DNA of 64,000 nt from Candidatus Rokubacteria bacterium 13_1_40CM_69_27 (lineage in GTDB: Bacteria; Methylomirabilota; Methylomirabilia; Rokubacteriales; CSP1-6): contig MNEF01000106.1 of NCBI GenBank assembly GCA_001917535.1, positions 1 through 64,000 on the forward strand, in the 5' to 3' direction. Positions within the stretch are counted from its first letter, which is position 1; each line of letters opens with the position of its first letter. Position numbers and translations under genes: made by a program. Shown piece by piece: positions 959-30,068 of this stretch. The notes below the pieces were generated by a model that searched no databases, was not told the DNA's origin, and saw only the letters and a program-made list of their open reading frames with translations.

Positions 959-5522
<4,564 letters not shown>

Positions 5523-26410: not shown

Positions 26411-27640
26411 GTGGCGGTCGGATCCAGCATCGAAGCGGCTCTCGCCCACATCGATGAAGCGGAGCTGGTCGCGCTGACGCGCGACCTCGTCCGTATTCCG
26501 AGCGTCGTCCGTCCCGATGACTCCCACGCCACCGAGGGAGCCGTCGCCCAGTACATCGAGCGCTGGTTCGTCAAGGAAGGTCTGAACGTCGAGGTCCAGC
26601 CGGTCGCCCCCGGCCGGCCCAACGTCGTCGCCTGGCTCGGCGACAAGGGGGACGGCCGGTGCCTGCTGCTGGAGGGGCACACCGACGTGGTCACCGAGGG
26701 CAATCCCGCCGAGTGGCGCTACCCGCCCTTCAGCGGCCAGGTCGCCAACGGGCGCATCTGGGGGCGCGGTGCCGCCGACATGAAGGGTGGCCTGGCCGCG
26801 GCGATGATCGCGGCGGCGGCGATCAAGCGGAGCGGTGTGCCGCTGGGCGGCCGTCTGGTGGTCGGCGCGCTGGTCGACGAGGAAGGGGACATGCTGGGCG
26901 TCAAGCACCTCTGCGCGACGCCGATCGGCCAGGAGCTGGACGCCGCCATCATCTGCGAGCCAGAGCAGAACCAGCTGTGCCTCGAGCAGCGGGGCGTGGT
27001 CTGGGCCCGGGTGCTGATCCGCGGCCGCATGGCCCACGGGGCCATGCCGGAGGCGGGCGTGAATCCGATCGCGGGACTGGCGGCGCTCCTCCACCAGGCG
27101 CCCCGGCTGGAGCGCCGGCTGCGTCGACTCTGCCGGCGCAGCCGCTATCTTCGTCCGCCCACCGTCACGGCGACGGTGGTGCAGGCGCCCGTTCATGGCA
27201 CGCCCCAGTCGAACGTCATCCCGTCGGCGGCTCAGGCGACGCTGGACATCCGTCTCACGCCGGGACCGGACGAGACCGTGGTGTCGGCCGAGATCGAGCG
27301 TGCCTGTCGGGCCGCCGCGGCGAGCGTTCCCGGCCTCAGTGTCGAGTGGTGGGCGCTCAACGGCTTCCGCCCGCCGACCACCGTGGACCGGCGCGAGCCT
27401 CTGGTGCGTGCCATGATGACGGCCGTGCGCCAGGCGACGAGGCGCCGGCCGGTTTTCGGCGGCGTGCCGGGCTCGACCGACGGCACGATTCTTCGGACGA
27501 CGCGAGGCATCCCGATCGTGACGTGCGGCCCTGGGAACCGGCTTATCGCGCACCAGGTGAACGAATGCGTCGAGGTATCAGACTTGGTCGATGCAGCGCG
27601 AATCTATGCCGGATCGGTCTTGAACTTCCTCAACCTATGA
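26411..27640 (+). CDS. M20 family peptidase (ArgE/DapE-like)
   Basis: 409 aa; LLLEGHTDVV, GRGAADMKGGLAAAM, VDEEGDM, CEPEQNQ. Confidence 0.9.
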   Translation: MAVGSSIEAALAHIDEAELVALTRDLVRIPSVVRPDDSHATEGAVAQYIERWFVKEGLNVEVQPVAPGRPNVVAWLGDKGDGRCLLLEGHTDVVTEGNPAEWRYPPFSGQVANGRIWGRGAADMKGGLAAAMIAAAAIKRSGVPLGGRLVVGALVDEEGDMLGVKHLCATPIGQELDAAIICEPEQNQLCLEQRGVVWARVLIRGRMAHGAMPEAGVNPIAGLAALLHQAPRLERRLRRLCRRSRYLRPPTVTATVVQAPVHGTPQSNVIPSAAQATLDIRLTPGPDETVVSAEIERACRAAAASVPGLSVEWWALNGFRPPTTVDRREPLVRAMMTAVRQATRRRPVFGGVPGSTDGTILRTTRGIPIVTCGPGNRLIAHQVNECVEVSDLVDAARIYAGSVLNFLNL

Positions 27641-28863
27641 ACGAGGACACGCCCCGGCTCCGTCCCCTCGAGGCCTCCCCGGTCGAGCACGAGGGACAGC
27701 GGCTCGTCGCCCTCCGCGACCCGGCGGGCTACACGACGTCGATCTTGCTCCTGCCGCTGCCGCTCCTCGAGGTGCTGGCGCTCCTCGATGGCCAGCGCTC
27801 GATCCTCGACATCCAGGCGGAGTTGGCTCGGCGCCACGGCGAGATCGTGCCGCGAGCCGACATCGAGGACGTCATCGCGGCGCTGGACGAGCACGGGTTC
27901 ATGGAGAGCGCGCGGTTCGCGGCCCGGCGGGCGGCGATCGACCGCGCGTTCGTCGCGGCCGCGGTCCGGCCGGCAGCCCACGCCGGCAGCGCCTACCCCG
28001 TGGATCCGGGGGAGCTTCGCCGGGCCATGGATGCCTTCTTCACGACCTCCGGCGGGCCCGGTGCGATCGACCGCACGGCCGCGCGCGCCGACGGGCTCAG
28101 AGCCGTCATCGCGCCCCACATCGACTATCACCGCGGCGGCCCCGGGTACGCGTGGGCCTACCGCGACCTGGCCGAGCGGAGCGACGCCGACCTCTTCGTC
28201 ATCTTCGGCACCTGCCACGCCGGGATGCCCGACCCGTTCGCGCTCACGCGGAAGGACTACGACACCCCGTTCGGGCCGGCCCCCGTCGATCGCGACTTCG
28301 TCGAGCGGCTGGCCGCGCGCGCGGGCCAGGACTGTTTCGCCTCCGAGGCGGCACACCGTGTGGAGCACTCGATCGAGTTCCAGGCGGTCTTCCTCCGCTA
28401 CCTCTCCGCGGGGCGGCGCGACATCGCGATCGTCCCCGTCCTCGCCAGCTTCGCCCACGAGGCGCTGGCCGGGCGCCGGCGCGTCGAGGACGATCCACGC
28501 ATCCCCAGATTTCTCGAGGCGCTGGGTGAGACGATCGCCGCCAGCGGACGCCGCGTGGCGCTCATCGCCGGAGCCGACCTGGCCCACGTGGGGCCGCGCT
28601 TCGGCGACCCCGAGCCGGTCTCGCCGAGCGAGCTCGACCGCATCGAGCGGGAGGACCGCGCCATGCTGGGGGCGGTGCAGAGCGGCGATGCCGCCGCCTT
28701 CTTCGAGTCGGTCGCGCGCGACAACGACCGGCGGAGGATCTGCGGGCTCTCCCCGATCTATGCCCTCCTGCGCGCGCTCGGCAGCGGCGCGGGGTCCCTG
28801 CGGCACTATGGCCAGTGGCCGGATCCTCAGGGCGTCGTCAGCTACGCCAGCGTGGTGTTTTGA
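27637..28863 (+). CDS. MEMO1 family / AmmeMemoRadiSam system protein B with N-terminal extra domain
   Basis: ATG 27637 in frame with ORF 26659..28863; PAAHAGSAYPVDPGELR, VIAPHIDYHRGGPGYAWAY, FGTCHAG, EAAHRVEHSIEFQAVFLRY. Confidence 0.85.
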   Translation: MNEDTPRLRPLEASPVEHEGQRLVALRDPAGYTTSILLLPLPLLEVLALLDGQRSILDIQAELARRHGEIVPRADIEDVIAALDEHGFMESARFAARRAAIDRAFVAAAVRPAAHAGSAYPVDPGELRRAMDAFFTTSGGPGAIDRTAARADGLRAVIAPHIDYHRGGPGYAWAYRDLAERSDADLFVIFGTCHAGMPDPFALTRKDYDTPFGPAPVDRDFVERLAARAGQDCFASEAAHRVEHSIEFQAVFLRYLSAGRRDIAIVPVLASFAHEALAGRRRVEDDPRIPRFLEALGETIAASGRRVALIAGADLAHVGPRFGDPEPVSPSELDRIEREDRAMLGAVQSGDAAAFFESVARDNDRRRICGLSPIYALLRALGSGAGSLRHYGQWPDPQGVVSYASVVF

Positions 28864-29318
28864 TGGCCACGCCCGAGAGCGAGTGGAAGCTCCCCCGGCT
28901 GCGCATCGACGTCAACGGCGACTGGCTCGACGACGGCGTCGAGGTCACGCATCCGGGAGTCCTGGCGAACCTGCGCGCGAACCTCCGGCGAGACCCTCAG
29001 GGCTACTTCATCCAGACCCGGGTGCGGATCCCGGTGGAGGTGGACGACGTTCCCTGGGTCGTCGCCCGGGTCGAGCTGAGCGGCGAGCGGCTGCACGCCG
29101 TCCTCAACGACGGCACCGAGACCGACGTCGATCCCGCGACGATCAGGCTCGGCGTCGGCAACGTCCCCTACTGCGCCGCCAAGGGCGGAGGATTCGAGGC
29201 GCGCTTCAGCCGGGCCGCGGCGTTCCAGCTGCTGGCGCTGGCGAACTATGACGAGCGGACGGGCGAGGGAACGCTGCGCGTGGGCAGCCGCGAGGTCCCC
29301 CTGAGGCGACGGGCGTGA
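28863..29318 (+). CDS. DUF1285-like protein
   Basis: ATG 28863 overlapping previous stop; LRIDVNGDWLDDGVEVTHPGVLANLRANLRRDPQGYFIQTRVRIPVEVDDVPWVVARVEL. Confidence 0.6.
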   Translation: MATPESEWKLPRLRIDVNGDWLDDGVEVTHPGVLANLRANLRRDPQGYFIQTRVRIPVEVDDVPWVVARVELSGERLHAVLNDGTETDVDPATIRLGVGNVPYCAAKGGGFEARFSRAAAFQLLALANYDERTGEGTLRVGSREVPLRRRA

Positions 29319-29782
29319 CGGGGAGGACCGTCGTGGGGGGACTCCTGGCGGCGGGGCTCGCCCTCGGTGCCGGGGCCTGGTGGCTGCGCGGCGATGGCGC
29401 GGGCTCGGTGACCATCGACAGCATCGGCGATCGGGTGCAGACGGTCCCGCGGGGGCGGTGGCCCGTCTTCGCCGCCAAGCCCGAGGTGGCGGAGCTCTAC
29501 CGCTTCGTCGCCACCGAGGGCGACTGGGCGGCCTCGGTGCCCTGCACGTGCGGGTGCGCGGATCTGGGCCACACCTCCAACCGCTCCTGCTACATCAAGG
29601 CGGAGACCGCCGAGCGCGTCACCTTCACCAGCCACGCCGCCACGTGAAGCCTCTGCCTGGACATCACGCGTGACGTGATGCGGCTCCGGGCGGAGGGTCA
29701 CTCGCGCGCGGCGGCCCGGGCGGCGATCGACGCGAAGTATCTCCGCTCCGGCCGCCCGACGCCCACGCCGCTGCCGCCATGA
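29315..29782 (+). CDS. PCxCGC-motif (PCYCGC-family) protein, candidate selenoprotein with in-frame TGA at 29645-29647
   Basis: VPCTCGCADLGHTSNRSCYIK...FTSHAAT-[TGA]-SLCLDITRDVMRLRAEGHSRAAARAAIDAKYLRSGRPTPTPLPP*; family continues downstream of TGA in the same frame and the TGA sits at the first Cys of a CxxC. Confidence 0.85.
29650..29696 (+). promoter_or_regulatory. bSECIS-like stem-loop
   Basis: CCUCUGCCUGGA(50-61)/UCCGGGCGGAGG(85-96) lower stem; CAUCACG-CGUGA-CGUGAUG upper stem with GU in the loop, loop about 22 nt after UGA. Confidence 0.75.
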
Positions 29783-29849: not shown

Positions 29850-30068
29850 ATGAGGATCGACGAGTACAAGTGCGTGGCCTGCGGCACCATGTGCGGCCAC
29901 GGCATGGTCTCCCACAACTTCGTCAAGAAGATGGTCGACTGGGTCAAGGAGGGGCGGCGCACGCCCGCGCAGGCCGCTCGCTACATGGCGCGGTTCTGCA
30001 TCTGCGGCGTCTTCAACACGGTCCGCGCCGAGAAGCTCTTCGAGCAGGCGCGGACCCGGGGGGCTTGA
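29850..30068 (+). CDS. small Cys-rich protein of unknown function
   Basis: 72 aa MRIDEYKCVACGTMCGHGMVSHNFVKKMVDWVKEG...ARFCICGVFNTVRAEKLFEQ; GGAGGGAGC upstream of ATG. Confidence 0.6.
   Translation: MRIDEYKCVACGTMCGHGMVSHNFVKKMVDWVKEGRRTPAQAARYMARFCICGVFNTVRAEKLFEQARTRGA

Follow-up and report, generated by a model that had tools for sequence, protein, structure and literature searches.

The window is a stretch of 64,000 nucleotides from a draft genome (3.68 Mb, 93.6% complete) that is closest, among genome records with names, to Candidatus Rokubacteria, in the Methylomirabilota. Three genes on its forward strand concern us here. The first (27637..28863) encodes a Memo-like protein (PF01875 / TIGR04336, AmmeMemoRadiSam system protein B), identified by profile matches and neighbour comparison and conserved two genes upstream of the gene under study. 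The second (28815..29318) encodes 167 amino acids with no Pfam or NCBIfam match, and its adjacency to the third is conserved. The third (29315..29782) begins with a GTG at 29315 that overlaps the TGA stop of the second at 29316-29318, which suggests that the two may be translationally coupled. The standard ORF list gives this third gene only as a truncation of 110 amino acids, 29315-29647. We argue from the frame, the Pfam match and the alignment of homologues that it very probably encodes a selenoprotein of the PF13798 (PCYCGC) family, 155 residues long, in which the TGA at 29645 would be read as selenocysteine 111.

When TGA is translated as U, 29315-29782 reads ...PCTCGC...GHTSNRSCYIK...SHAAT-U-SLCLDITRDVM...IDAKYLRSGRPTPTPLPP-stop. 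By its column among homologues the in-frame TGA (29645..29647) takes the first position of a UxxC motif, the cysteine of which, C114, is encoded at 29654-29656. After it come 44 sense codons and then the genuine stop, also a TGA (29780..29782), placed by the sequence and the alignment of C-termini. A sequence-only reading of this DNA had proposed the longer frame, and our translation confirms its coordinates, residues and codon count. That reading had also recognized the C-terminal layout of PCYCGC-type proteins. The Pfam profile agrees, since its match spans the TGA from residue 50 to residue 154 with 73.1 bits against a gathering threshold of 25, and the C-terminal half is matched in full only if the TGA is read through. 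This is the single PF13798 match in the whole source genome, and it carries one TGA.

The protein has two predicted reactive clusters, Cys-x-Cys-Gly-Cys and Sec-x-x-Cys. The first lies in the PCTCGC motif (29540..29557, residues 76-81), a form of the PCYCGC or CxCxC motif in which P76, C77, C79, G80 and C81 are invariant among 34 sequences. A GH...CY element and the His preceding the selenocysteine are conserved as well. In the AlphaFold model the mean pLDDT is 89 and the part after the TGA reaches 94-98, while residues 1-30 are of low confidence. There the gene encodes a hydrophobic signal or anchor, VVGGLLAAGLALGAGAWWL (29318..29395), in place of which the N-termini of some homologues are of the lipobox or Tat-like kind. 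Judging from this segment the PCYCGC domain is probably outside the cytoplasmic membrane, and the gene product would be a small, membrane-anchored, extracytoplasmic selenoprotein.

The in-frame TGA is a property of the family in this part of the tree rather than of one genome. Within the order there are 54 PF13798 matches in 46/60 genomes, all with an in-frame TGA, and when one match from each of 51 order loci is aligned the TGA falls at the identical column in 51/51, in the context HAAT-U-xxC or near it. Across the phylum Methylomirabilota every match among the matches listed has the TGA (71/95 genomes). A scan of the genomes of 85,462 species found 66 relatives. When these are aligned together with the window gene and a few more members of the phylum, 65 rows have TGA at the column and six have Cys (L100, L103, L108, L114, L118 and L121); homologous TGA genes share descent, and such counts are not independent events. 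Beyond the phylum, too, TGA is the codon in most homologues. The selenocysteine forms occur in Chloroflexota, Gemmatimonadales, Thermomicrobiales, Symbiobacteriaceae and one Anaerolineales chromosome record. Among the Cys forms is that of Thermanaerothrix daxensis, a named isolate, and a Bacillus pseudomycoides plasmid protein has Cys at the same column too. The sequence-only reading had proposed to look for Cys aligned with U in relatives, and this check came out in its favour.

It is important to weigh the simplest objection, that translation truly stops at TGA 29645, giving a protein of 110 residues, and that the frame beyond it is open by chance or is a relic. Standard ORF finding does stop here, and RefSeq stops the homologue in Thermomicrobium roseum at the same place. 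However, no other codon occurs at this column among the aligned order homologues, the Cys homologues continue past it, and the 44 downstream codons keep the family C-terminus under purifying selection equal to that on the upstream part. Median dN/dS among order members is 0.42 upstream of the TGA, 0.48 downstream and 0.47 beyond the hairpin described below (pairwise Nei-Gojobori; pairs are non-independent, and some have a dS close to saturation). The part after the TGA is constrained like the rest of the protein. Homologues of the window type that truly end at the TGA, which the earlier reading had named as grounds for refutation, are absent from the aligned matches in the phylum. We consider a true stop very improbable. 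A pseudogene, or a sequencing or assembly error that created the TGA, might be suspected in a draft genome of 127 contigs, but the same TGA is present in dozens of separately assembled genomes from several phyla and in the finished record of a T. roseum plasmid, and we regard the chance of such an error as negligible.

The selenocysteine reading predicts a signal in the message, and there is a good candidate. An apical hairpin, CAUCACG-CGUGA-CGUGAUG (29662..29680), has a 7-bp stem and a 5-nt loop (29669-29673) with G at loop position 2, and it is supported by folding and conservation. Folding also gives a larger stem-loop (29650..29696) in which a 12-bp lower stem (29650-29661 with 29685-29696) starts 2 nt past the TGA. 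The sequence-only reading had described this same structure, and folding reproduces it with a minimum free energy of -33.4 kcal/mol and z = -2.6 against dinucleotide shuffles. Synonymous recoding is a stricter null than shuffling; the first 51 nt past the TGA fold at -32.2 kcal/mol, and only 0.12% of 5000 such recodings do as well. Published constraints on bacterial SECIS elements are a loop of 3-9 nt, a stem of 4-16 bp, G in the first two loop positions, a spacing of 16-37 nt and an MFE <= -7.5 (PMC13188914). The window hairpin agrees with all of these (CGUGA loop, 7 bp, spacing of 21 nt, -32 to -33 kcal/mol), as the earlier reading had supposed.

Only the upper part of this structure is shared. 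When all distinct sequences are set in register from the TGA, conservation among homologues does not extend to the 12-bp lower stem, and for this reason we believe that stem should not be counted as part of the putative signal. The 7-bp stem closing a 5-nt loop 21 nt past the TGA, on the other hand, is found in 69/72 distinct TGA sequences of the window's group. The loops are CGTGA (55), CGGGA (15) and CGTGC (2), with G at position 2 in 72/72. One sequence (L042) exchanges the loop-closing pair from G-C to C-G, which changes Asp to Glu in the protein. Three TGA genes have an incomplete 7-bp stem, and one of them, L074, looks damaged. Stems of at least 6 bp are observed in 70/72, where recoding with synonymous codons at the window's usage would lead one to expect 16.6; this null applies a single codon usage to all organisms and ignores relatedness. 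Because of these simplifications the comparison with the Cys genes carries more weight. None of the six Cys homologues keeps the stem (0/6), yet they encode the near-identical peptide ICVDITRDVM, using ACC/ACA, CGG/CGC/AGG and often GTC codons. The swaps between Sec and Cys, in which the hairpin is gained or lost, amount to a clean natural experiment.

The source genome also has what is needed to use such a signal. The sequence-only reading had proposed a search for selA, selB, selC and selD, and all four components are present. A tRNA-Sec with anticodon TCA (69.7 bits) lies together with selA (582 bits) and selB (368 bits) on contig C80, and selD lies on contig C122 (G000:C122:113903-114847, L143). 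In the wider sample selA is present in 54/59 genomes of the order and in 29/30 of the genomes that carry homologues outside the phylum. By its sequence SelD is itself a predicted, independent selenoprotein of the same genome, with its own selenocysteine in a UxxK motif (ASCAG-U-ASK). It serves here as the positive control in place of Fdh-alpha, for which the source genome has no match above the cut-off. A molybdopterin match resembling Fdh-alpha, with in-frame TGAs, does lie below the family cut-off (G000:C27:15331-16290), and it could be either a selenoprotein or a broken gene.

These data bear on one more alternative, that the TGA is read as another amino acid such as Trp or by unspecific read-through. 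We found no support for it, though an open frame alone would permit it. The residue that replaces selenocysteine is Cys and not Trp, the hairpin tracks the TGA and is lost with Cys, the full selenocysteine machinery is in the genome, and TGA serves as an ordinary stop in the same genome, for example at 29316-29318 and 29780-29782. This alternative is highly unlikely. The selenocysteine reading is the one we adopt, with UGA 29645 decoded, as we picture it, by SelB and tRNA-Sec(UCA) under the direction of the hairpin at 29662-29680.

How new is this? The sequence-only reading had raised the idea that the family might be undescribed as a selenoprotein, and here it was mistaken. A 'CYCXC family protein (hypothetical protein OS_HP4), PF13798, UxxC' is among the predicted selenoprotein families in Table 1 of PMC13188914, OS_HP4 coming from work on the Olavius algarvensis delta-1 symbiont, and OS_HP4 with UxxC is also in the list of PMC9312934. 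The NCBIfam model NF041379 is named 'CYCXC family (seleno)protein'. The order in fact holds two PF13798 groups, the window group and one with LYCYC-ECDK...HAATUDICMDEALDA. The latter scores 123-125 bits against NF041379, whereas the window group scores 41-68 and the window protein itself 41.2, below the equivalog cut-off of 90 bits. The two groups share the Pfam family, the occurrence in this order and the selenocysteine at the same HAAT-U-xxC column, and a profile-profile comparison matches them Sec to Sec with E 9e-22. The window group differs in having PC[TYF]CGC, in being longer by about 11 residues between CYxK and SHAAT, in having ITRDVM where the CYCXC group has DEALDAS, and in the sequence of the hairpin at this position. 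The CYCXC group has, at almost the same location, an unrelated stem, CGAGGCGC/GCGTCTCG, around TGGAC or TGGAT. Bacillota and Chloroflexota also have PCYCGC motif (lipo)proteins with Cys in place of Sec. They share the PF13798 domain and its layout, with CxxC where the window protein has UxxC, and the six tested have no hairpin.

The claim that this family contains selenoproteins is therefore already known, and the PC[TYF]CGC branch adds to it a new group of members that lies beyond the curated NF041379 model. What we add is modest: a branch that falls below the cut-off of that model and that RefSeq truncates at the TGA in T. roseum. The RefSeq entry for T. roseum DSM 5159, a 'PCYCGC motif-containing (lipo)protein', stops at locus base 5201, which is this TGA, and past it the frame continues as UGICIDITRDVMRL...GTNTPWPPE. 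This corrects a systematic annotation error: among the matches listed for the phylum the family was found only in the Sec form, and standard gene calling cuts it at the TGA, as RefSeq does even in the cultured T. roseum. The T. roseum gene (L141:4884-5333, NC_011961.1, WP_012642643.1) has a hairpin, ATCACGCGTGACGTGAT, identical to that of the window.

The gene neighbourhood falls into distinct arrangements. In Rokubacteria with the window layout the Memo-like gene and the 167-aa gene precede the selenoprotein gene in about 20 loci, and in 20 loci besides the window the 167-aa gene is directly upstream. The human protein Memo1 binds Cu(I) (PMC9477392) and is reported to bind iron too (PMC11081632), which may be a weak hint at function. 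In 23 loci a COX2-like cupredoxin (Pfam COX2), whose CxxxCxxxHxxM pattern is that of a CuA site, is directly downstream, and a Fer4_5 (4Fe-4S) membrane protein comes next, likewise in 23 loci. This order is found in Chloroflexota, Acidimicrobiia, Gemmatimonadales and a single Rokubacteria locus (L104), and it does not differ between Sec and Cys forms. Iron uptake was considered as the main reading and rejected, as an apparent FTR1 beside 27 loci was a product of cluster chaining. In the window itself a Cys-rich protein of 72 aa, MRIDEYKCVACGTMCGHGM...CICG (29850-30068), recurs in two further Rokubacteria loci (L088, L099) and has no Pfam or NCBIfam match.

The order with the CuA protein offers a testable first function for the family. 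As the likeliest role we tentatively suggest, with somewhat less than even confidence, selenol/thiol redox chemistry or metal (copper) handling for CuA-type sites at the cell envelope, mainly from neighbours in other phyla, among them the heavy-metal P-type ATPase and ArsR genes beside the Bacillus Cys form; these lie mostly outside the window's lineage, where the gene follows a Memo-like gene. The protein would keep the CxxxC of a CuA-type cupredoxin reduced, or deliver metal to it, as Sco-type proteins serve cytochrome oxidase. Copper-site assembly factors of the Sco/TlpA and NosL types act on CuA-type proteins and are Cys/His proteins anchored in the membrane. They are a functional analogy only, and we found no sequence or fold relation to the window protein: a fold search of the PDB with the model gave no match at E <= 0.001, and a PDB sequence search gave no relative, the best match having E 0.15.

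A selenoprotein for iron or heavy-metal handling, or a selenol peroxidase, is a serious competitor to copper-site maturation and quite possible, if short of probable. The Bacillus Cys form has these heavy-metal and arsenic genes beside it, a Parageobacillus PCYCGC lipoprotein adjoins an Fe3+ binding-protein gene (PMC13068155), and FTR1 is near three loci (by direct tblastn) and a multicopper oxidase near eight. Against this, the CuA cupredoxin with Fer4_5 is the only repeated, immediately adjacent order outside the core Rokubacteria. The broadest form of the copper reading, in which the PC[TYF]CGC branch would form a phylum-spanning and so far unannotated subfamily of selenoproteins that assemble or reduce envelope CuA-type copper sites, in some lineages with a second selenoprotein nearby (DUF1573-like, GCU), we hold to be doubtful as a whole.

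A separate observation concerns DUF1573-like proteins near the PCYCGC gene in Chloroflexota and Acidimicrobiia loci. They score only 24 bits against NCBIfam OS_HP2 (cut-off 100). The published motif of DUF1573 selenoproteins is UGC (PMC13188914), whereas these have GCU, with an in-frame TGA in EGC-U-PP (L107:7157, L118:5428, L100:5020, L103:7168, L106:271, L108:5146, L109:546, L110:5643, L115:5715, L121:4624 and L123:11479). In each the TGA is then followed by a conserved hairpin around GTTC.
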